Positions 22,754-35,525 of a DNA stretch of 44,315 nt are shown one piece after another. The notes beneath the pieces are model-generated. The model did not search any database. It had not been told where the DNA came from and worked only from the letters and a program-made list of their open reading frames with translations. Location of the stretch: NCBI GenBank assembly GCA_903921825.1, contig CAIXRF010000038.1, positions 1 to 44,315 of the forward strand. The letters are read 5' to 3'. How positions within the stretch are numbered: position 1 is the stretch's first letter; every line of letters starts with the position of its first letter. A program made the translations under genes and the position numbers. This DNA comes from an uncultured Microcaldota archaeon. GTDB taxonomy: Archaea > Micrarchaeota > Micrarchaeia > Burarchaeales > Fermentimicrarchaeaceae.

Positions 22754-22879
22754 TGGGCCCGTGGAGATTTGAACTCCAGACCTACGGCTCTCCCAGAGCG
22801 CCTAAACCGTGCGGATTCCGTCTTGTCCCGCACGGCGTCGTATAAGACCGCCGCTCTGACCAGGCTGAGCTACGGGCCC
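22754..22879 (-). tRNA. tRNA-Ile(UAU) with 51-nt intron (intron 22790-22840) after position 37
   Basis: Cloverleaf folded by hand: acceptor GGGCCCG/CGGGCCC, D arm GCTC-AGCCTGGTCA-GAGC, anticodon loop CUUAUA|A, T arm TGGAG-TTCAAAT-CTCCA; exon sum 75 nt; intron contains CCGTGCGG/CCGCACGG hairpin. Confidence 0.88.
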
Positions 22880-22942
22880 GTGAGGGTAGATTTCTCATGC
22901 GGTATTTTTAAGAACTGCGATGAAATTTCAGTTGGTGATGGA

Positions 22943-23593
22943 TTGAGGACGTTTGCTGTTCTTATCACGCTGCTGCTCGCCGCGGCTTCCGCTTACGCCT
23001 GCGTCGTATATGGCGGGGGCGCAGTCTACCTCAACAAGCCCAACGTCACGGTGAATCTTTCTGCCATACTGGAAAGCAACGCGACTAGGGGGGCGAACTA
23101 CACGACGTCGAATGGCTCCGTCTTCTACCGCAGCCATTACAACGAAACGCTCCTCGTCTCGCTTGGGCAGGATGAGTATGGATGGCTGCTGAGGGTCGGG
23201 CTGCCGAACGCCTCGGAGATGGGACAGCCGAGGGAAATCAATTGGAGCGAGGCGGTCTGGACTGAGCTTGACTGGCTCTGGAGCCACAAGGTGATAAACG
23301 GCACAAATCCAGGCGACGTTTCGCAAATCGTGAATCTCCTCGCAAACAACTCCAATTCCTACGCTTACTGGAAGGATGGGAACTGGACTGCAATCCCGAA
23401 CAACTGCTTCCCAAATGGCAACTGCGTGCGCTGCGGCCCTGCGGGCGCGGAGCTGAATGCAACTTTGCCGCCAAATGGACTTGAGATTCCTGAGAAGACG
23501 GATGATGAGAAGGTGGGGGCATGCCTTTCCGGATTTGCCCTGCTCTTCCTCTCAGTCCCGCTCCTACTCCTTTCCCATCGCGTAGGTAGCTAG
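22943..23593 (+). CDS. secreted, sequon-rich protein with C-terminal TM anchor
   Basis: TTG start then signal peptide LRTFAVLITLLLAAASAYA, many N-X-S/T sequons, C-terminal LSGFALLFLSVPLLLLSHRVGS. Confidence 0.6.
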   Translation: MRTFAVLITLLLAAASAYACVVYGGGAVYLNKPNVTVNLSAILESNATRGANYTTSNGSVFYRSHYNETLLVSLGQDEYGWLLRVGLPNASEMGQPREINWSEAVWTELDWLWSHKVINGTNPGDVSQIVNLLANNSNSYAYWKDGNWTAIPNNCFPNGNCVRCGPAGAELNATLPPNGLEIPEKTDDEKVGACLSGFALLFLSVPLLLLSHRVGS

Positions 23594-26041
23594 GCGCATA
23601 TGCGCTCCTGCAGCGCTATATGCAAGCTTAGTATTCACATCACCGTTCATTTCGTCAATCAGCGCGAGCGCGAGCGGAATCTCCTTGCCTGTGAGAATCG
23701 GCAGCCTCTCTGCGAGGGTGATGTAGGCTGAAACTTTCCGTTCCAGCTGGAGTTTGCCGAACCTGCGCAGGAGCTCACGTATCTCCTTCTCATCCGGGAT
23801 GGCTCCGTGGTCAGGTGCTGTTCCGGACTCCAGCGCCGTTATATAGTCCCCGATTTTGTCTTTCACCGCTTCTTTCCGAACCGTTTTGTGCGGCGTATTT
23901 ACCTGCGGTTCCGGCTTGGCCAGCTCAAGCGGCGCAGGAAGTGGAAGCACGCCTAATACCGCATGGCCGTACTTCTCCTCGGGAACCTCGAATCCGAGCC
24001 CCGCCTCCCCGGCCTCCGCCCTCTGCGTCAGCTCCTTTGCAATTATCCCTTCAAGTACACGGAGATAGCCTACCAGCAGTTTTGCGCGCGGCCTTTCCAT
24101 GTCAATCATGATGCCGGGGAGCCTCTTCCATGCAAGGTCGCTCCTGCCCAATGCCTCGGTTGCACGCCATATTTCGTGGTAATTAACCTTCGTTTTCCTC
24201 ATGATTGCTCTGGGATGGAATATGCCATTCGCGATGCACCAGGCAATTGCCAGCCGCTGCGGGTTTGTTATTACGCGGCGCGCGGCCAGCGACACGTTGT
24301 ATTCCTCAAGCAGCCCGTACACCTCAGCTCTGTCCTTGCTGCTGCAATGCTGCTTGAACGGGACCGTCTCCATGATTTTTTCAAACGGTATTTTTGCCAC
24401 TGCTTTGAGCTGGTGGCTGCAGTTGTAAGAGCGGAATACTGGCCACTGCGCCTGCTCCCTTTTGACGACTCCCATGCGCGTCAGCCTGCACAGCGCGTCC
24501 GCTTGAGGAGCATACAGCTCCGCATCTCTCGCAGTACCATACGTTATCCAAGGCGGGTTCCTCTCTTTCTGGATTGACTCCTGCAGCTCGGCAAGGTTCA
24601 GAAGCTGCGGGCAGAGTCGGTCCCCTCCGCTTCTAAAAAGGGCATCGAGATTCAGGTGATTGCTTTTGCGGAGCTGGAAGGCCTTTGCCGCAGTGAGAAC
24701 TTCGCTGCCGCGCCCGGTAATCTTCAGCCCCTTCCCGTCATTCCAGACGAGCCCCGCCGTCTCAAGCCATTGAAGGCCTTCGGCTACGCGCCTTTTTTTT
24801 GCCTTGAGGGTGCGTGAGATATTAGCGGCATCATCTTCCCCTTCCGCCACGCAGTTAAGGATGCGCAGGCGGCGTTCGGTGGTCACGAGCCCGGAAACCA
24901 TCATTCTTGCAGCAAGCACATACTGGTCGCCGCTGATAACCGCCCTCCTGGCCGATATGCTTGGCTTTCTCTCCGGCGCGAACGTCCCGCTGCTCTCCAT
25001 TTTCGCGAGATACACGCTGAGGTCATACTCGGAGAGCTTAGTCATTTTCAAAAGCACGTAGCGGTGCGGGATTTTCCCGCCGCGCTTCAGTATGGCGTCG
25101 GCAACCGCATCAGATTTTTCTGCCACGCTCTCCCGGCCTGCGCTCATCCCGAGCCGCTGTTTCACCAATTCCACGCGCTGCTTGCTCCATCCTGTTCCCG
25201 CAATAAGTTCATCCATCGTTGGCTTGCAGTAGGGCCTTTCCAGCATCCTGTATGCCCTGCGGAAGTAGGCGTTGTCGTTGTCCTCCCGTTCCTTCCAACT
25301 CAGCGGGGTCGCCGCGTTCTTGGGTGCCACCCAGTTGCTCTTCCGCATGTCTTCAAGCACATTCCTGTCTAGGTGCCTCAAATGGCCCTTTGCAACGCAT
25401 CTCGAAATCATCAGCTTATCGCATATGGCCCTTCTTTTCTTCGGAAGCACCCCTCCATTTTCCGCAGCCGCGGCAACTGCAGCATCAAGAACCTCTGCCC
25501 TCCTTTCCGGGCAGGTCTTCAAGCCCAGCTTTCTAATTATGAGATTTACAGTAATGGGGCCAATGCTCCTCGCATCGGCAAGTTCCCAGCGCGTCGGCTT
25601 GCGATATGGCCTTTCAAGCGCTTTGTATGTTTCCAAGAGTGCCGCTATTTCCCTCTGGAGCAATGTTTCCAGCTTTGCCAGGCATTCCCCAACCGCTGCA
25701 GTCCCAACTGGCCCTTCCTTCCCGTCGTCCTCCGCTTTCCTCTGCATCGCGGAATACGCTTTCCATTCACCGTTGGATAATTGGATTGAATTCGCAAGGT
25801 CTTTCTTGAGGATGTTAATCGCCCTAAGCGAAAGGTTTTCCCAAAAATACAATATCCTCTCCTTTTCCTCGTCAGGCCTCGCCCTCAGCCATGAAATCCC
25901 GTTCTTTTCTATCCCCCGCGATGCCGCTGCAAAATCCACCCCATTCCCGCCGTTGCTTATCTGCCTGCGCGCAAAATCAGCGACTAGACTATGGACCTGC
26001 TTCTGGACGGAAACAGCTGGAAAGGTAGTGGTCCCAGACAT
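23564..26041 (-). CDS. 825-aa multi-HTH modular protein (paralogue of the giant protein)
   Basis: Contains W-module GISWLRARP, duplicated ERPYxKPTxxEL HTH, GGKIP module, wHTH-like region and C-terminal AHMRLATYA module shared with 26109-31625 product. Confidence 0.8.
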   Translation of the reverse strand: MSGTTTFPAVSVQKQVHSLVADFARRQISNGGNGVDFAAASRGIEKNGISWLRARPDEEKERILYFWENLSLRAINILKKDLANSIQLSNGEWKAYSAMQRKAEDDGKEGPVGTAAVGECLAKLETLLQREIAALLETYKALERPYRKPTRWELADARSIGPITVNLIIRKLGLKTCPERRAEVLDAAVAAAAENGGVLPKKRRAICDKLMISRCVAKGHLRHLDRNVLEDMRKSNWVAPKNAATPLSWKEREDNDNAYFRRAYRMLERPYCKPTMDELIAGTGWSKQRVELVKQRLGMSAGRESVAEKSDAVADAILKRGGKIPHRYVLLKMTKLSEYDLSVYLAKMESSGTFAPERKPSISARRAVISGDQYVLAARMMVSGLVTTERRLRILNCVAEGEDDAANISRTLKAKKRRVAEGLQWLETAGLVWNDGKGLKITGRGSEVLTAAKAFQLRKSNHLNLDALFRSGGDRLCPQLLNLAELQESIQKERNPPWITYGTARDAELYAPQADALCRLTRMGVVKREQAQWPVFRSYNCSHQLKAVAKIPFEKIMETVPFKQHCSSKDRAEVYGLLEEYNVSLAARRVITNPQRLAIAWCIANGIFHPRAIMRKTKVNYHEIWRATEALGRSDLAWKRLPGIMIDMERPRAKLLVGYLRVLEGIIAKELTQRAEAGEAGLGFEVPEEKYGHAVLGVLPLPAPLELAKPEPQVNTPHKTVRKEAVKDKIGDYITALESGTAPDHGAIPDEKEIRELLRRFGKLQLERKVSAYITLAERLPILTGKEIPLALALIDEMNGDVNTKLAYSAAGAHMRLATYAMGKE

Positions 26042-26045
26042 CCTT

Positions 26046-26073
26046 CTAGAACGCGAGGTTTAGGTATATGAAT
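26046..26073 (-). promoter_or_regulatory. conserved TATA/dyad element upstream of 825-aa gene
   Basis: ctagaacgcgaggtttaggtatatgaat; 27/28 identical to 31628-31655; contains CATATACC (minus strand) 21 nt before ATG. Confidence 0.7.
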
Positions 26074-26108: not shown

Positions 26109-29100
26109 CTATTGGTTATGCCTCTTCCAGTTGCGGAATTCCTCGACAAGGCTTCTGTAGTTCTGCCTGAAGACGAGAAGGGCCTGCGCAATGAGCCGCC
26201 CATCCTCGGGCCGCTCCTTCTCGAGGAAACGGAAATTGCTTCCGTCGAATATGAAGTCTGACTCCTCCAGCGCGCCCATGTACTTGAAGAGCGTTTCCTT
26301 TTCCCGTTCTCCGGCTTTGAGCATATTCCGTGCTGCTTCCCTGGCAGTTTCAAACCGCTCCTTCTTCTTTCCTTCCCAGTTCTCCGCATACACGATAAGT
26401 TGCATGTGCGCACGCACTGCCTGACGGGCAAGTGCATCGTTCGTATCATTATCCATTTTCTTTATCTTCCTGATTGCCTCTTCCCTCTCCTCATCAAGGA
26501 GCGCCAGCGCGCCCACCGTATCCTTATCCGTCTTCTTGCTTTGGATGAGCGCCGTCCTCTCCCTGTCAATTTCCCCGAGCCGCCCAGCAAGTGCCTTGAA
26601 GTCATCAACTTTCTCCTGGGTTTTCGCACTAACGTTTCTGGTCAACGCGGAGGGAATCTCAACTGGAACGGGTTGGGGTGGAGGCGGAGGCGGGGGTGCG
26701 AACTTCCTCACGCTGGGCGTAAGCAGGATGAGCCGCGTGTATAAGTCGGGTGCCTTCAGCACCAGCTCACGCGCTGTTTTTTCGTCCATCCCGGCGATGA
26801 GCGCGAGTGCCTCTTCCCTCTCCGGCTTGGTAAGCTGCGTCACTTCCATCTTTTTCACGAGCTTGATGAAGAAATCGACTTCGTTCTCTGCATCATCCTG
26901 GAGCGTTGCGATGAGAAGAGTATGGGGTGACTGGGCCTGTTCTCCGCCGACACCTTCGCCGGGCATTCCGTCCGGCTGCTCGTCGAGCTCCTCGTCCGCT
27001 GCTCCCCCCAGCTCCTTCAGTGGCGGTTTATTCGGCAATCTCCCAGCCGCACTGCCCCGTTCCTTCACCGGGGGCTTTCCTGGCTCCCCACCAAGTTCGC
27101 TCCCCCGTTCCCCAACTGGCGGTTTTTTCGGCTTCCTGCCAACTGCCTCTTTTCTCCCGGTGGCTCTTTCGCCCGCCCCAGTGCGTGGCTTGCCCCGCCC
27201 AACTGCCCGTGGGACCTTCAGGTCCGAGGCTTCTATCGGGAGTGGAAGCGGGATGGGGGTTGTCTTCAGCGCCTTGCCCCAGAGCTTCGCCGGGAGTTTT
27301 GCCTTGAACCCGTTCTCCTTGAGCTCGTCCGCGACTATGCGTTCCAGTTCGCGGAGGTAGTTGGTTATTATAACCGCGCGAGGCTCCTCCATGTTTATCC
27401 TGATGCCATGCTGCCTCTGCTGAATGCTTCCGTTTAACCTGAAATATCTTTCGATGCTCAGGGCGGTGTTCATCGAGAGCCCGGTCCGTTCTCCTATCGC
27501 TTGGCAGTTGAAAATCTTGTTCGCGATGCACCAGGCGACCCTTAGCCGCGAGGGGCAGTCAATGCCTGCATCGCCCCCGGGCGGGATATTGTGCTCCGCG
27601 AGGAATGCAGCGACCTCCGCCTTCTCCCTTTTGGAATACTTGAGCTTGAGGGTGCCCACCTTCGCAATCTCCTTGAACGGGATTTCTCCGATTTTTTTGA
27701 ATGCGGCGCTGAACTCGTAAGCACGGTAGAGGGCTTCCGCCCGCTCGGTCTCGATGACGTTCATCTCCATGAACCTTTGGAACGTCTTGATGAGGACGGG
27801 CAGCTCAATCTTTCCCCCCGCACCGAACGATATCCATTCCCGCTCTCCCTTCACCGAATCCTGCATGTCCGCCAGGTGGAGGAATGCCGCGCAGGATTCC
27901 GCATGCCTGGTCCATCCGAAAACATCCGTGAGATCCCATTTCCGCTTCCTGTTGAAGGAGGCGGGCGGCTTTCCCTCGAAGAAAATCGCGTCCGTAGCAT
28001 TCAGAACTTTTCTTCCCCTTTTCGTTGCAAAATACCCGCCATCGCGCATTGCGACCAAGCCCGCATTCTTCAGGTGCCGCAGGCCCTCGTAAAAATCGCC
28101 TGCCGAGCCGCTTATTTCTGATATTATTTTTGAGGGCGTGCTTTCGCCGGATATTATTGCCCTAAGGAGGAAATAGCGGTAATCAGCGGGGATGAGATAG
28201 GAGACCATCCTCCTTGCGGCAAGCCTGTATGCGTCATTCACGACTTCCGCATTCTTCCATCCGAGCTTCCGCACTTCGAGTTCCTCCGGCTCGGGCACAT
28301 TGACGTACTGCTTGAGCCTGAACTTGCTGAGGCCGGTCTTTTTCTCTAAGACGTAGTAAGGAGGGACTACTCCGCCGTTCTCATCGGTTGCCTTTTGGAT
28401 TTTATCCATTGTCTCGGCAATTCGTGGGTCGCAGAACTCCAGGTTCGTTCCTTTCTTTGCGGCGCGGACATTTTCTACGCTCCAGCCGAGCTCTTTGGCG
28501 AGCTCGTCTGCCGTGGGGTTGCGGCGTGGCGTTTTTAGTTTCTCGTAGGCCTTTTTGAGGCGGTCCGGGTTCGTTTCCTTTCGCTTCTGCGCCCGCTTTC
28601 CTCTGGATGTTCCGCTTTTCTCCTCTGCCTCTATCGGCGGTGGAAGCGGGAGGGACACAAACTTGTCGCGCATTCCAGTTTCGGGAACTTTCACTTTGAT
28701 CCTTCTCTCCTTCAGCTCGCCAGCGGCAATCCCTTCGAGCCGGCGCAAATAATCAAGCAGCATCCTTGCGCGCTTTTCCTCCACATTTATTCTGATTCCC
28801 GGCAGTCTCTTGCGCACATGCCCCGCGTCCTCGAACATCCCGGCAACCATCGTCACGTCCGTCCGCCTCATCCCCGTTTTTCTCGCAATTGCGTTGTGCG
28901 TGAACATCCCGCTTGCAATGCACCAGCTGACCAGCAGCTTGGACGGGCTGTCAACGGTTTCGCGCACGGAAAGCGGGATGCCATGTTTTTGGAGCAGCTT
29001 ATCCGCTGCCTGCCTGTCTTCCGATGAGTAGTGCTGTTTGAACGGGCATTTCCGCGCAATCTCGCCGAAAGGAATCCGTTTCAGCTTTGCAAAATCTTCT

Positions 29101-31625
29101 CCGAAGCTGTAAGCGAAGCGCCCTGACTTTCCGACATCCTCTTCCCAGACGAGTCCCATCTTTGCCAGCTTGTAGAACGACGCGCTGTCGTGCAGGTAAA
29201 GCTCTGCCTCCCCGCTCTGCCCGTGGGTCACCCATCCCCTTTCAGGAACTGACTCCTGCATGTCCGCGAGGTCCAGGAATGCGGCACAGATGCCGCTGTG
29301 CGCAGCATTGCTGAATATTTTTGTGAGGCTCCAGTCCTTCTTCTTGCCCAACTTTGAAGGCGGGTGGCCCTGGAAGAAAATCTTCTCTGTCGCCTTTAGC
29401 ACCTTCTTTCCACGCTTGGTGACTGCATAACGTTCACCATCCTGCAGGACAAGCCCCGTATCCATGAGATGTTTCTGTTCGAGGTGCAACGACCCGGAAG
29501 ATGCGCCCGTCGTTTTCGCGATTTCATATGCACTCTTCCCGTCCTCTGCCAGGTGCTTGAGAAGGAAGTAACGGCAGCCGGTGGGAGCGAGCTGCGATAT
29601 CATTAACCTCGCAGCCAGTTTGTAGGGATCATCGGTAATCGTCGCCTTCTCCAACTCGAACGTTGCGGCTTTGGCTTCCGGGAACACGCCCGCTTTCATC
29701 AAGTGTGGCAGCTGCCCGTCTACCTGGAACCGCGAAAGGCCAGTCAGCTTCTTCAGCATTACTTTGTTCGGAACCTTCCCGCCATTCTTCCCAACCGCCT
29801 CCACTATCCTGTCGCGCGCCTTCGCTGTGCGGAGGTCGCAAGTTTCCAGGCCGAGAGCGCCCTTGATTGCGAGGACTTTTTTCCTCTTCCATCCTGTTTC
29901 ATCCACGAGCTCATCAATCGTCGGTTTGCGGTATGGCTTCTCCAGTGCTTTATGCGCTTCCTTCAGCATTTTTCCATCCGAAATTGACACTTGCCCGGCA
30001 ACCGGCTTACGCAATTTCTCTGCGTCCACATTTTCAGTAACTCCCGCAGGGCGTAGCTTCCCTTCGCCGGCAAGTTTCAGCGCAAGCTTTCCCAGCTCAA
30101 TCTCGTTCAGCTTGAGTTCGGCGGAAATCTCCGCGACGCTCTTCCTTCCGGCAATCATCTCAAGAAAGAGTTTCTCTCGGTCCACGGACGCGGCGACAGA
30201 GGGTTTTGGAGTGCCTGTCTGCGCCGTTCGCCCCACGGGGATATCGGGCGTTGGCACTGCATTTCCCCTCTTCTCTGCGGCGTCCTCCTTTTTCTTCAGC
30301 TCCAGCAGCTTTGGGTAAATCGCCCACTCTTCCTCGGTAATGCGGTGGCGCGTCCAGTTTTTAGTATAGTTCTCGTTCTTCTCCTTCTCGAAGCGCTCGA
30401 GAATCCTGTTCCTCGCGCTCTTCGAGAGTTTCTCGCAGTTGCCCAGTATTTTCATGCGGAGTATCATGGGCCGCCGCCTGAACCAGTCGAACCCGTAGAT
30501 GACAATGTTGTTGGAAACCCGCTCAAAATCAACTTCCATCGTTTCCGCGTCTTGCCTGATTTTCGCCTTCATCTCGCTGAAAACCTGCTTTTCGAACGCA
30601 TCGAGCGCTTTGGTGGATTCGAAATCCTTCAGCAGGCGGCTTGCTGCCCTGTGCGAAAGCTTGCCCCAATTGGAATAGATGGCCTTCTTGGAATTCGGCG
30701 CCTGCTCCCGGAGCCATTCAAGCCCGCCCTTTCTTATCTGCCGCGAGGCGGATTCGAGGAACTGTTCCCACAAAGTCGCCGAAACGGCGGGCGCCTCCGG
30801 CTGCGGCACGCCAGCCTTCGGCTGCTCAGTCCGTGACGCAATATCTTGTTTCGTTTCCGCTTTTGGCTGAGGTTCCAGTGTCGCCTTTTCCCTTGGCGTT
30901 TCAGGTTGCTTTGTCTCCATTTTTGGCGGGGCGCCTGGCGGTTTCGTTTCTTTCGGTGCTTCAGGTTGCTTCGCGGCTACCTTGTGCGGAACTTCTGGTG
31001 CTTTCGTTTCCCGTGGTGGTTCGGGTGGCTTTGCTTCTACCTTGTGCGGAACCTCCGGTTGCGGCATTCCCCGCAATCCTTCGGCCCGCCTCGCCGCTGC
31101 CTTCCGCTTCCTTTCATTCCTTATTTGGCAATAAGTTTGCCATTCGACATCAGGAAGGCGCTCGCGCTTCTGGACTTTTTCTTTCAAGAATGCGAAGAGG
31201 ACACCCGCTGCCTGCTCCGTGAGGCCACGCCAGCCATCCAATATCTGGGCGCGCCTGTCCCTCGGCTGTCCGGCGAACCAGTCAAAGCCGAACTCGCTTA
31301 GCATTGTTGAAACGGAGGCCAGCTGCACGGGCACGGCGACGTGAGGAAGCGGGCTGCCGCCAACCCAGGCAACGAACTGCTTGCCAAAATCATCTTCCGA
31401 AAAACCGGGCGGAATCTTCATGCCGTGCTTTTGCGGGTTGAGCCAGACCTCCCTTACTTGTGCCGGGTATTTCTCAGCGCGGGTGACCAGCGCCCGCTTC
31501 ACCATCTCCTTGTCGGATGTGACGCTGAAATCCATGTATCTCTTGGCAAGCATTAAAGTCCCGAGAACTTCTGGGTGGGGCTTCTCCTTCTTCTCGGGCG
31601 GCTGCAGTTCAGCAATAGAACTCAC
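26109..31625 (-). CDS. giant (~1838 aa) modular multi-HTH protein with Pro-rich linkers
   Basis: Open ORF 26109-31685; GTG at 31625 preferred because a TATA-like element lies just upstream inside the longer ORF; two tandem ~460 aa HTH units, three W-modules, repetitive linkers. Confidence 0.8.
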   Translation of the reverse strand: MSSIAELQPPEKKEKPHPEVLGTLMLAKRYMDFSVTSDKEMVKRALVTRAEKYPAQVREVWLNPQKHGMKIPPGFSEDDFGKQFVAWVGGSPLPHVAVPVQLASVSTMLSEFGFDWFAGQPRDRRAQILDGWRGLTEQAAGVLFAFLKEKVQKRERLPDVEWQTYCQIRNERKRKAAARRAEGLRGMPQPEVPHKVEAKPPEPPRETKAPEVPHKVAAKQPEAPKETKPPGAPPKMETKQPETPREKATLEPQPKAETKQDIASRTEQPKAGVPQPEAPAVSATLWEQFLESASRQIRKGGLEWLREQAPNSKKAIYSNWGKLSHRAASRLLKDFESTKALDAFEKQVFSEMKAKIRQDAETMEVDFERVSNNIVIYGFDWFRRRPMILRMKILGNCEKLSKSARNRILERFEKEKNENYTKNWTRHRITEEEWAIYPKLLELKKKEDAAEKRGNAVPTPDIPVGRTAQTGTPKPSVAASVDREKLFLEMIAGRKSVAEISAELKLNEIELGKLALKLAGEGKLRPAGVTENVDAEKLRKPVAGQVSISDGKMLKEAHKALEKPYRKPTIDELVDETGWKRKKVLAIKGALGLETCDLRTAKARDRIVEAVGKNGGKVPNKVMLKKLTGLSRFQVDGQLPHLMKAGVFPEAKAATFELEKATITDDPYKLAARLMISQLAPTGCRYFLLKHLAEDGKSAYEIAKTTGASSGSLHLEQKHLMDTGLVLQDGERYAVTKRGKKVLKATEKIFFQGHPPSKLGKKKDWSLTKIFSNAAHSGICAAFLDLADMQESVPERGWVTHGQSGEAELYLHDSASFYKLAKMGLVWEEDVGKSGRFAYSFGEDFAKLKRIPFGEIARKCPFKQHYSSEDRQAADKLLQKHGIPLSVRETVDSPSKLLVSWCIASGMFTHNAIARKTGMRRTDVTMVAGMFEDAGHVRKRLPGIRINVEEKRARMLLDYLRRLEGIAAGELKERRIKVKVPETGMRDKFVSLPLPPPIEAEEKSGTSRGKRAQKRKETNPDRLKKAYEKLKTPRRNPTADELAKELGWSVENVRAAKKGTNLEFCDPRIAETMDKIQKATDENGGVVPPYYVLEKKTGLSKFRLKQYVNVPEPEELEVRKLGWKNAEVVNDAYRLAARRMVSYLIPADYRYFLLRAIISGESTPSKIISEISGSAGDFYEGLRHLKNAGLVAMRDGGYFATKRGRKVLNATDAIFFEGKPPASFNRKRKWDLTDVFGWTRHAESCAAFLHLADMQDSVKGEREWISFGAGGKIELPVLIKTFQRFMEMNVIETERAEALYRAYEFSAAFKKIGEIPFKEIAKVGTLKLKYSKREKAEVAAFLAEHNIPPGGDAGIDCPSRLRVAWCIANKIFNCQAIGERTGLSMNTALSIERYFRLNGSIQQRQHGIRINMEEPRAVIITNYLRELERIVADELKENGFKAKLPAKLWGKALKTTPIPLPLPIEASDLKVPRAVGRGKPRTGAGERATGRKEAVGRKPKKPPVGERGSELGGEPGKPPVKERGSAAGRLPNKPPLKELGGAADEELDEQPDGMPGEGVGGEQAQSPHTLLIATLQDDAENEVDFFIKLVKKMEVTQLTKPEREEALALIAGMDEKTARELVLKAPDLYTRLILLTPSVRKFAPPPPPPPQPVPVEIPSALTRNVSAKTQEKVDDFKALAGRLGEIDRERTALIQSKKTDKDTVGALALLDEEREEAIRKIKKMDNDTNDALARQAVRAHMQLIVYAENWEGKKKERFETAREAARNMLKAGEREKETLFKYMGALEESDFIFDGSNFRFLEKERPEDGRLIAQALLVFRQNYRSLVEEFRNWKRHNQ
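27000..27145 (-). repeat. in-frame tandem repeat in giant protein linker (KPPxxERG unit)
   Basis: KPPVGERGSELGGEPG / KPPVKERGSAAGRLPN / KPPLKELGGAADEE, three ~16-17 aa copies. Confidence 0.75.
30860..31075 (-). repeat. in-frame Pro/Lys-rich tandem repeat in giant protein
   Basis: PEVPHKVEAKPPEPPRETKA / PEVPHKVAAKQPEAPKETKP / PGAPPKMETKQPETPREKAT, ~20 aa period. Confidence 0.8.
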
Positions 31626-31627
31626 CC

Positions 31628-31655
31628 CTAGAACGCGAGGTTCAGGTATATGAAT
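31628..31655 (-). promoter_or_regulatory. conserved TATA/dyad element upstream of giant gene
   Basis: ctagaacgcgaggttcaggtatatgaat; GAAC-n5-GTTC dyad adjacent to CATATACC TATA-like box. Confidence 0.7.
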
Positions 31656-31662
31656 ATTAGAG

Positions 31663-32784
31663 TTACTGGGATTCCGCTTCCTCACTTTCGGCGCCTGGCT
31701 TCGCCTTTGCTGCTTCCGCCCGCTTGCCTGCCTTCCCGATCATTAGCAGGCGTTCCAGGGCGTCCGGTCGAATGCTTTCCAGCTCGTGCCTTGCCGCATG
31801 GCCCATTCCCCGTATAAGGGCCAGTTCAGCCTTTGAAACCCTGCCGCTTCCCTCAGCGATATAGAGGAAGAGCTTGACCCTGCAGCCCAGCGGAAGCTTG
31901 TTGAACTCCTCCACAAGCGCATCCATGTCCCTGATGTCGCGGAGAAGAACATCGGTTGGAAGCATCCCCAGCCTGAGCAGCTTTACGCACGCCAGGGCTG
32001 CGCCATCATCAGTGCGCGCCGCTGCTGCCCCCGGCTTCCAGTCCCACTGGAATGCGCCGCAATCCTTCAGCCTTTCCAGGCACCTCTTAACCCTCTCCCT
32101 GGAGAACCTGGTTTCCCTTATGAGAGCGGAGGGCCTGGGGACCTTGCCGCCCCGCTTCGCCACAAGCCCGGCTATTGTGTCGAGCGCATGCGCAATGTTC
32201 GCGAAACATGTCTCAAGCCCGAGCCTCTCCGCGCGCTTGTATACCTTGTGCGCGCTCAGGCCCGTTTCATCCACAAGCTCAGCAATCGTAGGCCCGCGGT
32301 AGGGCTTCGCCAGGGAGCGGTGTGCGGCACGGAATTCCTCGTCCTCGCGCTTCTGCCGCGCGCTCGCCTCTTCTGCGTATCTTTCCCAGAGGGCCTTCCT
32401 TTCCTTTGTCGCCTTCCTCCCGACATTTGCGCGCCACTCCGCAACGGCCGCCCTGAACTCATCAACCCGCTCCACCAGCTCCGGGTCGCGCCCCTTCTGC
32501 TTCTGGTAGATGTTGCGGTGGAGGATTCCGAGCGCCCTCTTTTCCGCCAGCCCCGTCCCCTTCCGCGCCATATCGGCATACCAGGGGAGCTGGTAGCCCC
32601 TGTTCCCTTCATCTTTCCAAATCTCCTCAAGGTTTGAGACAAACTTTTTGACTGCGAAGTTCCGAATCCTTGCCCTCAGCTTCTTCGGCTCCTCGTCCGC
32701 CATCTTCGCATACCTGTTGAACTCGGAAGACGGCACCTTCTTTTGGAGCGTCTCTGTATTTGGCGCATGGGCAACGATAGTCAT
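31663..32784 (-). CDS. 373-aa modular HTH protein (third cluster member)
   Basis: SLAKPYRGPTIAELVDETGLSAHKVYKRAERLGLETC and RGGKVPRPSALIRETRFSRERVKRCLERL modules shared with giant; start at ATG 32784 (MTIVAHAPN). Confidence 0.72.
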   Translation of the reverse strand: MTIVAHAPNTETLQKKVPSSEFNRYAKMADEEPKKLRARIRNFAVKKFVSNLEEIWKDEGNRGYQLPWYADMARKGTGLAEKRALGILHRNIYQKQKGRDPELVERVDEFRAAVAEWRANVGRKATKERKALWERYAEEASARQKREDEEFRAAHRSLAKPYRGPTIAELVDETGLSAHKVYKRAERLGLETCFANIAHALDTIAGLVAKRGGKVPRPSALIRETRFSRERVKRCLERLKDCGAFQWDWKPGAAAARTDDGAALACVKLLRLGMLPTDVLLRDIRDMDALVEEFNKLPLGCRVKLFLYIAEGSGRVSKAELALIRGMGHAARHELESIRPDALERLLMIGKAGKRAEAAKAKPGAESEEAESQ

Positions 32785-32816
32785 CGCATCAGCCGCGCTT
32801 TCCGTCTCTAAAAAGC

Positions 32817-33116
32817 TTACTCCCTCCGCGGGAGCTCCCCTTTCCCGTGGGCCCAAGCGTCGAATGCTTTGCCAAACGCTGTCTTGAGGAAGTCTGGGGG
32901 AACCTTCTGCCCGTATTCTATTGGGTTGCACCAGACGTTCTTCACGTAATCCCCTAGCTTCTCCGCCCTTTCAATCAGGTCGTCCATCGCCTTCTTCCTC
33001 TCCTCGCCCTTTGAGTGCGCGCACTTTTCCGCAAGGTCGAAGATGCTTTCCTTGCGCACTTCCACAGCATGTAGGAGGAACGGAGAGATTGGTTTGAATT
33101 TCCTAACTGGACTCAT
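32817..33116 (-). CDS. 99-aa single-module protein homologous to giant N-terminus
   Basis: RAEKLGDYVKNVWCNPIEYGQKVPPDFLKTAFGKAFDAW aligns to RAEKYPAQVREVWLNPQKHGMKIPPGFSEDDFGKQFVAW of giant; ATGA overlap with upstream gene. Confidence 0.72.
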   Translation of the reverse strand: MSPVRKFKPISPFLLHAVEVRKESIFDLAEKCAHSKGEERKKAMDDLIERAEKLGDYVKNVWCNPIEYGQKVPPDFLKTAFGKAFDAWAHGKGELPRRE

Positions 33117-34105
33117 CTGCCCCGCCTCATGTATTCCCGGACGAGCTCCGCGTATGGCGTGTCGGTTCCCTTCGCCCTGTTTATAACATCCCACTCGTTG
33201 TAGCAGACTGCCATGAAGCGCTTCTCGTTCTTTTCCGTGGGCATGAAGGAGAAACCTGTGGTAAGCTCAACAAGGCCCATGTATTCGAGGAGCAGGTCTC
33301 TCTGCGGATTCTTCACTGTTTCCAGCTTCGTCTCAAGCTCTACCTTCCGCGCCTCAGCCGCTTTGCGGTCCTTGGTGTAATTGGCTGCGGGGCGCACCTT
33401 TCCATTCACAGTGGCGGGAGTGGCGGTTGACGCAGCGAGCAGCTTTTCCGCATCGCTTGCGGTAAGCGTTGCGCCGTAATACAGGTCGCGCTCCTTCTTT
33501 GGGGGAGGCCCCTCCAGCGAGTAGTGTCTTGGAGTGTAGGATTCCTTATCTTCTTTCCTAAGCGCTTTTACTTCGTCCTTTACCGTGCTCGGTTTTCCGT
33601 ACTCTGCCTCCATCTTGTGGAGGAGAACCCGGTCGCCGTTATTCGCGGCGTGTTCCCTCAAATCCCAAAGCAGCCGCTTCTGAGCATCAGTGGAGAGCAG
33701 CTTCCACTTTTTCGAGACAAACTTGTGGAATTCCTGCGGCCGGGCCAAAAGCCAGCCATAGCCGCCGACCGCGATTCCCACGCTCGCAAGCCCGATTACC
33801 TGCGTTTCTATGCCATTCAGCTCTTCCTTTCCAATGCCCTTTCCGGTTATGAAACCGTAAATTTCATCAACCGCTTCCCCGGCGACTTTCGCCTTTTCGT
33901 TCCAGAGCTTGGTTCTCGCCTCGGAATCGCAAGCTGGGCTGGAGCGTTCGGTCTCGAGGTCGGAAATTTTGCCCATCGCGGTCGTGGCGAGCGCGATGGC
34001 GTCGACCACAATTCGTGCTCTTTCCGCCTTAACAGCCGCGTCGGCCATGAATTTAGTATTCGTGAAGGCCGAAGCCGGCTTCTCCTGCAGGACAGTACCA
34101 CTCAT
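33113..34105 (-). CDS. 330-aa modular protein with W-module and C-terminal YMG module
   Basis: GYGWLLARPQEFHKFVSKKWKLLS and RDLLLEYMGLVELTTGFSF shared with giant; MSGT start (34105) matches N-terminus of 825-aa paralogue. Confidence 0.72.
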   Translation of the reverse strand: MSGTVLQEKPASAFTNTKFMADAAVKAERARIVVDAIALATTAMGKISDLETERSSPACDSEARTKLWNEKAKVAGEAVDEIYGFITGKGIGKEELNGIETQVIGLASVGIAVGGYGWLLARPQEFHKFVSKKWKLLSTDAQKRLLWDLREHAANNGDRVLLHKMEAEYGKPSTVKDEVKALRKEDKESYTPRHYSLEGPPPKKERDLYYGATLTASDAEKLLAASTATPATVNGKVRPAANYTKDRKAAEARKVELETKLETVKNPQRDLLLEYMGLVELTTGFSFMPTEKNEKRFMAVCYNEWDVINRAKGTDTPYAELVREYMRRGR

Positions 34106-34133
34106 CGCAACACCTACCATATTGCGCCGTTCT

Positions 34134-34143
34134 GGTATATGAA
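34134..34143 (-). promoter_or_regulatory. TATA-like core GGTATATGAA shared with the two conserved elements
   Basis: Same 10-mer as at 26063-26072 and 31645-31654; lies 28 nt from proposed start 34105. Confidence 0.5.
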
Positions 34144-34181
34144 GCTTGCCTCCCGCCGGGCGCGGAGTTTATTAATCATGG

Positions 34182-35525
34182 ATGAGAAATTTCCCCGTGG
34201 ATTTGGGAGCAGGCCTGAGGAAAGCGCTCGCGAAGCTGACGGGCGCCGCGATAATTGACGAGAACGCAGTACGGGAGTTCACGAAGGAGCTCCAGCGCAT
34301 CCTCATCTCCAACGACGTGAACGTGAAGCTGGTTTTCGAGCTGTCGAAGCGCATAGAGGAGAAGGCGCTGAAGGAGAAGCCGCTTCCCGGCGTCTCTCCG
34401 AAGGAGCACGCCGTGCGCGTCGTATATGAGGAGCTTTCGAAGATGATGGGCGAGAGGCACGAGCCGAAGCTGGGAAAGCAGAAAATTCTGATGCTCGGCC
34501 TGTTCGGCAGCGGGAAGACCACGTCTACGGTGAAGGTGGCGAAGTTCTACCAGACCCGCGGCCTGAAGAGCGGGGTAATCTGCTGCGACACGTTCAGGCC
34601 CGCCGCATATGAGCAGCTGCAGCAGCTTGCGGAGAGGAGCGGGGTCCCGTTCTACGGCGAGAAGGGCGAGAAGAGCGTGGAGAGGATAATCCGGAACGGG
34701 CTGGTGAAGCTGCAGGAGAACGACGTAATCATACTTGATTCTTCCGGGAGGAGCGCGTTCGATTTGGATTTGCAGCGCGAGCTGAAGCTCATCTCGCAGC
34801 ACTTTGAGCCGAACGAGCGCTACCTGGTGATTTCTGCGGACATAGGGCAGGTTGCCGGGAAGCAGGCAGCGGAGTTCAACGCCTCCGTCCCGCTGACCGG
34901 GGTGTTCATTACGAAGATGGATGGGAGCGGAAAGGGAGGGGGCGCGCTATCCGCGGTGGCGGCGACAGGGGCGAAGGTGGCGTTCATAGGCGTCGGGGAG
35001 AAGACCCAGGATTTGGAGGTGTTCGACTCGAAGAAATATGTGGGAAGGCTGCTGGGCTTCCCGGATTTGGAAACGCTAATCAGCAAGATGGAGACGATTG
35101 CGAAAGAGGAGAACATCAAGCCGGAGCAGTTGCTCGAGGAGAAATTCACGATAAAGGCATTCTACGAGCAGCTGAGGGCGACGAAGAAGATGGGCCCGCT
35201 CAAGTCCGTTTTCGGCATGCTCGGGATGGCAGACCTGCCGAAGGAAATGGTGGAGCAGAGCGAGGAGAAGCTGAAGAAATACGAGGTAATCATCAACTCC
35301 ATGACTCCTGCGGAGAGGGACGACGCGTCCCTACTGAAGAAAAGCCGCTCAAGGCAGGAGAGGATAGCGAAGGGCGCGGGCGTGAAGGTGGAGGACGTGC
35401 GCCGCCTGCTTACCGAATTCGAGAAGATGGAGAAGATGATGGTGATGTTCAAGAAGAACCGCGGGTTCAGGAAGCAGATGGAGAAGATGATGAAGGGCGG
35501 GTTCAAGATGCCCGGAGGAGGGTGA
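34182..35525 (+). CDS. srp54: signal recognition particle SRP54
   Basis: [55 protein letters not shown]-terminal Met-rich M domain. Confidence 0.95.

Follow-up and report, generated by a model that had tools for sequence, protein, structure and literature searches.

A real and so far unclassified GxxW module spread over three proteins of a helix-turn-helix gene cluster in a Micrarchaeota genome

The gene cluster and its shared module

We analyzed 44,315 nucleotides of DNA (hereafter the window, positions 1 to 44,315 of contig CAIXRF010000038.1) from an uncultured archaeon of the Micrarchaeota, the genome of which comprises 1.25 Mb in 138 contigs and is 88.75% complete. The window contains a cluster of five minus-strand genes, about 10.5 kb in length and divergent from the gene for SRP54 (34182-35525), that encode proteins of 335, 99, 373, about 1,838 (the "giant") and 825 amino acids (aa). 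A repeated module, which we call GxxW or B, occurs in the giant, the 825-aa protein and the 335-aa protein, and its five copies are real and homologous. A second carrier of the module, Ca. Micrarchaeota isolate AlinenSediments_bin-3476 (CAISET010000002.1, here G003), belongs to another genus of the same family and is the only one found besides the window genome.

All cluster features lie on the minus strand. The 335-aa gene (33113-34120) has a promoter-like site directly upstream, and its stop codon is overlapped by the ATG of the 99-aa gene (32817-33116), the product of which is essentially a single copy of a further module, A (profile match 133.5 bits, with the protein itself in the training set). 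The 373-aa protein (31663-32784) is a 422-aa open reading frame (ORF) with its start placed from a G003 ortholog of 370 aa, to which it is 82% identical; it carries one H block. The giant (26109-31625) has the order A-B-(proline-rich linker)-B-B-[H-W-X]-[H-W-X]-C, in which H, W and X are predicted helix-turn-helix (HTH) blocks. Its GTG start at 31625 was set from the promoter and from the start of the G003 giant, and residue numbers given here follow the 1,858-aa ORF. The 825-aa protein (23564-26041), which has no counterpart in G003, has the order B-H-[H-W-X]-C-like tail.

Three GxxW copies lie in the giant, at 31095-31325 (aa 121-197), 30531-30761 (aa 309-385) and 30276-30530 (aa 386-470), with 35-residue cores at 31185-31289, 30621-30725 and 30390-30494. 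The fourth is in the 825-aa protein at 25706-25936 (aa 36-112; core 25796-25900), and the fifth and most divergent is in the 335-aa protein at 33569-33799 (aa 108-184, profile match aa 109-179; core 33659-33763). A preliminary description of this DNA had reported such a repeat across three cluster proteins, and all five of its copies are present. The span it gave, 30468-33770, leaves out the copy in the 825-aa protein and the greater part of the third one in the giant, and the protein to which it assigned 330 aa has 335. The repeat of 50-60 aa that it proposed is real, but only 35 residues had been seen, and the true unit is about 70-85 residues long.

The homology of the copies was assessed with leave-one-out profiles, in which a profile built from four window copies was scored on the fifth, with 2,000 shuffles of each copy as the control. 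The left-out copies scored 35.9, 46.3, 36.2, 47.5 and 27.6 bits, the lowest value being that of the 335-aa protein, against shuffle maxima of 9.8, 8.7, 12.5, 11.3 and 8.4. A relaxed form of the motif pattern proposed earlier occurs at exactly five places in window ORFs of at least 70 aa, whereas 200 shuffles averaged 0.005 matches; a stricter form finds four of the five. The whole unit reads FAxxSxxIxxxG-xxWL...QP...IL..W..LS..A..LL..F-(variable loop)-EWxxYxxM, and S, G, W, L and A are invariant across seven copies, two of them from G003. Pairwise identity among B copies is 23-40%, and that between positional counterparts in the two genomes is 24-32%. In the 335-aa protein (window 33700-33810) the first helix of the module is unusually hydrophobic, to the point of resembling a membrane segment.

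Module A, a helical orphan of about 80 aa, was located by profile in the giant (31344-31586) and the 99-aa protein (32832-33074). It stands ahead of B at one place in the window giant and at two places in that of G003; its net charge is -1 to +2. The proline-rich stretch that separates the first two GxxW copies of the giant occupies 30771-31073 (aa ~205-305). Profile comparison found B unrelated to A, H, W, X and C (probability 0.3% or less). An AlphaFold2 model of a G003 A-B unit, made from 8 alignment rows, is all-helical with a disordered linker (mean predicted local distance difference test, pLDDT, 85.8; predicted template modeling score 0.50).

Searches with the seven GxxW copies gave no credible match in Pfam (four families, one copy each, best 0.0023 to Nup54_57_C) or in PHROGs (five families, one copy each, best 0.012), and a single copy matched RnlA-toxin_DBD at 0.1. 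PDB sequence matches were spurious, being mostly nanobodies that were apparently hit through a GWFRQ-like motif. Foldseek comparison of the A/B model with PDB and BFVD yielded nothing at E ≤ 0.001 (best PDB E 1.5), and in VIA-align against PDB all Z scores were below 5 (best 4.9, at 4.9 Å across 86 residues). On these results a known domain was rejected for B; its predicted all-helical fold has no clear match in PDB. The earlier statement that the module matches no familiar HTH pattern agrees with these results, and no characterized domain was credibly found for it in Pfam, PHROGs or PDB sequences. We conclude that GxxW is a genuine module that has yet to be classified, carried by proteins of an unusual family. 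The preliminary description had not recognized its full length, its partner module A, the HTH blocks that account for much of the proteins, or the apparent mosaic exchange described below.

Helix-turn-helix blocks

About 16 HTH domains are predicted in the cluster, eight of them in the giant; the count is by analogy, and support varies from domain to domain. H comprises two predicted HTHs, W is a winged HTH, and X holds another. The first H-W-X block of the giant (28614-29981), with four predicted HTHs or winged HTHs, is 76% identical in G003, and the second lies at 27204-28589. The 825-aa protein has one H-W-X block, recognized by profile comparison (23912-25279), and an extra H (25292-25654); the latter and the H of the 373-aa protein (31987-32349) were identified by profile.

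In the giant, matches above the Pfam cut-off were obtained to HVO_A0261_N (2.1e-10, first block), HTH_45 (4e-8) and Sigma70_r3 (3.8e-7, second block). Against the curated cut-off of 35 bits for the HVO_A0261 profile, the giant scores 40.8 and the G003 giant 38.1, whereas the 825-aa protein, at 21, falls below it. The W domain of the G003 ortholog superposes on MarR-type winged HTHs with Z of about 9-10.5, for example on 69 residues of 3nrv_A (Z 10.2, 1.5 Å) and on 77 residues of 2qww_C (Z 10.5, 2.6 Å), and the modeled fold of W is the firmest HTH assignment in the cluster. Within X lies another winged HTH that resembles W (hhalign probability 77%). The HTH modules are basic, with net charges of +6 to +9 each and +70 for the giant overall, and the ratio of nonsynonymous to synonymous substitution (Ka/Ks) in the first H-W-X block, 0.18-0.36, indicates purifying selection. 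A proposed similarity between the C-termini of the 335-aa protein and the giant was unconvincing, its score being reached by 42 of 1,000 shuffles.

W resembles the archaeal HVO_A0261/MarR/ArsR-type regulators in both profile and fold, but those matched in PDB are mostly small, single-domain proteins, whereas the cluster chains several HTHs within proteins of 825 and about 1,838 aa and adds the orphan modules A and B. The first HTH of H matches sigma-70 region 3 (PF04539); unlike a sigma-70 factor, however, the giant shows Sigma70_r3 in the Pfam scan without regions 2 and 4, and the host is an archaeon. One winged HTH of the giant has a weak NCBIfam match to Sso10a (5.8e-5), at 23.1 bits against a family cut-off of 60, and Sso10a is a 10-kDa protein rather than a giant with many HTHs. 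The PADLOC search for anti-phage defence gave weak matches only, to the winged HTHs of CARF/Csa3/CasR-type regulators and, at 0.03, one Csm2.

Distribution and history of the locus

Matches to the giant were found in 2 of 60 genomes. The GxxW profile matched 9 of 196 genomes of the class at E ≤ 0.05 and 6 of 301 genomes of the phylum at E ≤ 0.01, but the matches beyond the two carriers are partial, with E values of 0.0015 or worse per genome, and their number is close to chance expectation. The H profile matched 8 of the 196 class genomes at E ≤ 0.01, and the true carriers were again two. The HTH block matched 69 of the 301, with full-block matches only in the two carriers; the others are confined to profile positions 80-221, on and around the generic winged HTH, and two that were inspected were a winged HTH ending a membrane-protein-like ORF and a short ArsR-like protein. 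Contig scans with a few short peptide patterns returned nothing in one case and only bin-3476 in the other, and more relatives may exist. No phage matched the cluster, no plasmid match was credible, two viral-contig scans were empty, and our literature searches turned up no publication on the cluster.

At the same site G003 has a 224-aa gene, the 370-aa ortholog and a giant of 1,632 aa in which the A-B pair occurs twice, and it carries two GxxW copies against five in the window genome; the 335-, 99- and 825-aa genes have no separate counterparts there. The second HTH block of the window giant likewise has no close counterpart in G003, where five repeats of about 62 aa ending in WG..WK.A(V/L) stand in its place (L017:9561-10514, aa ~931-1252). 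Pfam at E ≤ 1 gives only a weak HNOB match for these repeats, which are reminiscent of homing-endonuclease-associated repeats.

Silent change, measured at fourfold sites between the window genome and G003, is unevenly distributed. In 27 flanking gene pairs it ranges from 0.40 to 0.67, with 1471 of 2470 pooled sites differing (0.60). In the 373-aa gene 35 of 151 sites differ (0.23; Fisher p = 2e-18, a test that here and below treats sites as independent), as do 42 of 182 in the first DNA-binding block of the giant (aa 569-1020; 0.23, p = 7e-22) and 41 of 127 in its C-terminus (aa 1493-1857; 0.32, p = 2e-9). The module-bearing N-terminus (aa 21-494) is background-like, with 35 of 56 differing (0.62). 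DNA identity is 85-96% along the 373-aa gene and drops to 60-71% within some 100 bases of the point where the giant begins; at aa ~500-570 it again stands at 62-74%, and it then climbs to 72-91% across the first block.

Codon bias was rejected as the cause of the silent-site dip because third-position GC in the cluster genes of the window (0.65-0.71) does not exceed that of neighboring genes (0.68-0.84). Antisense coding was rejected as well, since the window has no long antisense ORF corresponding to the core. Strong silent constraint is another possible cause. The simplest reading of these comparisons is that core segments underwent lateral exchange or gene conversion once the genera had separated, and that the modules around them turned over independently: given the low silent divergence relative to the flanking genes, the background-like N-terminus and the replaced second block, the locus has the look of a mosaic assembled by lateral exchange.

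A promoter-like 28-mer with a TATA-like start (TTCATATACCTGAACCTCGCG...) lies ahead of the giant at 31628-31655. Sequence comparison revealed a 96% identical copy ahead of the 825-aa gene (26046-26073) and a looser one (68%) ahead of the 335-aa gene (34117-34144), and the G003 giant is preceded by the same element with two mismatches to a 21-base pattern. Genome-wide, the 21-mer with up to three mismatches occurs at 16 places, against one in the reversed control. The idea that the shared element is a private operator is weakened by these similar 21-mers elsewhere in the genome; the 28-mer is partly a general promoter pattern of the genome.

The site beside SRP54 is variable among relatives (G004 was left out of this comparison, its SRP54 being at a contig end). 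It is nearly empty, about 280 bp, in G005. G007 has a 564-aa protein (L057:2575-4269) and G006 one of 451 aa (L078:5231-6586), with similar N-termini, that look mutually related. Because the G007 protein matches MazE/AbrB-type domains in two stretches, the site probably also hosts other repeat-built, DNA-binding-like proteins. Other occupants are genes of 344 and 170 aa in G002 and one of 171 aa in G001; in profile comparisons the G001 and G002 genes and the 224-aa gene of G003 were unrelated to A or B.

On the far side of the cluster from SRP54, a 274-aa ORF that looks secreted or membrane-bound (22769-23593; no Pfam match at E ≤ 1) converges on the 825-aa gene with a 30-base overlap (23564-23593). 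It is kept in G003, where the giant's stop lies 2 bases from the end of its ortholog, and in G002 at the adjoining site, and it gave no tblastn match in the examined stretches of G005, G006 and G007. Past the cluster runs what we take, mostly from the translations, to be a conserved archaeal gene row (Rpp21-like, S19e, PDCD5, L31e, eIF6, L18a, prefoldin and FtsY).

Possible roles of the cluster

We tentatively propose, with a probability of about 45%, that the cluster encodes a multivalent family of DNA-binding proteins in which GxxW is a tethering element of a DNA-bridging or silencing/regulatory assembly. The HTH and winged-HTH arrays would touch DNA at many points, and the B modules would act as helical docking units linking the giant, the 825-aa protein and the 335-aa protein to each other or to a common partner. 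In favor of this proposal are the homology of the modules, the confident helical model of A and B together with the lack of an HTH family match for B, the HTH matches and basic charge of the H, W and X parts, the nearly identical promoter element ahead of the giant and the 825-aa gene, and the purifying selection on the first H-W-X block. A precedes B in three places, and the proline-rich linker may give the A/B modules of the giant flexible spacing. A protein-protein role for B fits its nature as a separate helical module, the proline-rich linkers and its sharing among neighboring genes, and tethering is the likeliest of its putative roles. According to PMC4941522, Sso10a1 bridges and bends DNA; by analogy with that winged-HTH protein, the action of which would be similar to the one proposed here, the cluster could plausibly bridge or silence DNA. 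The assembly would work beside histone and Alba. Each step, from DNA binding by the HTHs to protein binding by B and the bridging or regulation of DNA, is a prediction.

Several observations weigh against this proposal. True GxxW copies occur in 2 of 301 phylum genomes, the window genome and AlinenSediments_bin-3476, so that a core chromosomal function is unlikely. Both carriers encode histone and Alba homologs, and we therefore reject the cluster as the sole chromatin protein system. The model of the whole HTH block reached a pLDDT of 65.8 only. Finally, the net charge of B across the seven copies runs from 0 to +6, six copies being mildly basic (+2 to +6), and the module may itself contact nucleic acid.

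That last point leads to a rather unlikely alternative, in which GxxW is a nucleic-acid-binding helical domain that adds DNA or RNA contacts and not a protein tether. Besides the charge, the basic residues that end several copies and the fusion of the module to HTH arrays are consistent with it; yet the seven copies gave no credible match to an HTH or DNA-binding family, the weak RnlA-toxin_DBD hit aside, the model had no PDB Foldseek match below E 1, and the 825-aa copy is neutral. B might instead be a fast-drifting spacer, without a specific part in interaction, in a structural family confined to this lineage. Its low identity within and between the genomes and its unequal copy number, 5 versus 2, would suit a spacer, but the invariant residues and the confident fold argue for a maintained domain, and of all the readings considered here we regard this as the least probable.

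The mosaic history invites proposals of another kind. The locus could be a horizontally exchanged genetic-conflict locus (for defence, foreign-DNA silencing or an addiction-type function) in which variable A/B modules set partner or target specificity, a view that we hold to be unlikely, slightly more so than a nucleic-acid-binding GxxW. The much lower silent divergence of the core and the 373-aa gene than of the 27 flanking genes, the module swaps at sharp boundaries, and the SRP54-adjacent site, which relatives fill with lineage-specific genes of other kinds or, in G005, leave nearly empty, all speak for it. No nuclease, toxin, ATPase or defence-specific domain was found in the cluster, however, the weak PADLOC matches are mostly generic winged HTHs, and the phage, plasmid and viral-contig searches gave it no support. 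It is less likely still, if above the spacer in our estimation, that the locus is a polymorphic one acting on DNA, its conserved DNA-binding core moving between lineages while entire HTH blocks and the orphan modules A and B are exchanged for others. Such a locus would be comparable to other polymorphic specificity or self/non-self systems, but would be built on giant multi-HTH proteins.

The genomes of these archaea are small, and for one of 1.25 Mb it is costly to keep a cluster of about 10.5 kb that includes a chain of some 1,838 aa with about eight domains predicted to bind DNA. If GxxW is a tether, the cluster would give this lineage its own means of bridging or silencing DNA beside histone and Alba; if the locus is indeed a mosaic, it would clearly exemplify the lateral exchange of modules in Micrarchaeota. 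Under either reading, A and B offer a testable pair of orphan domains.

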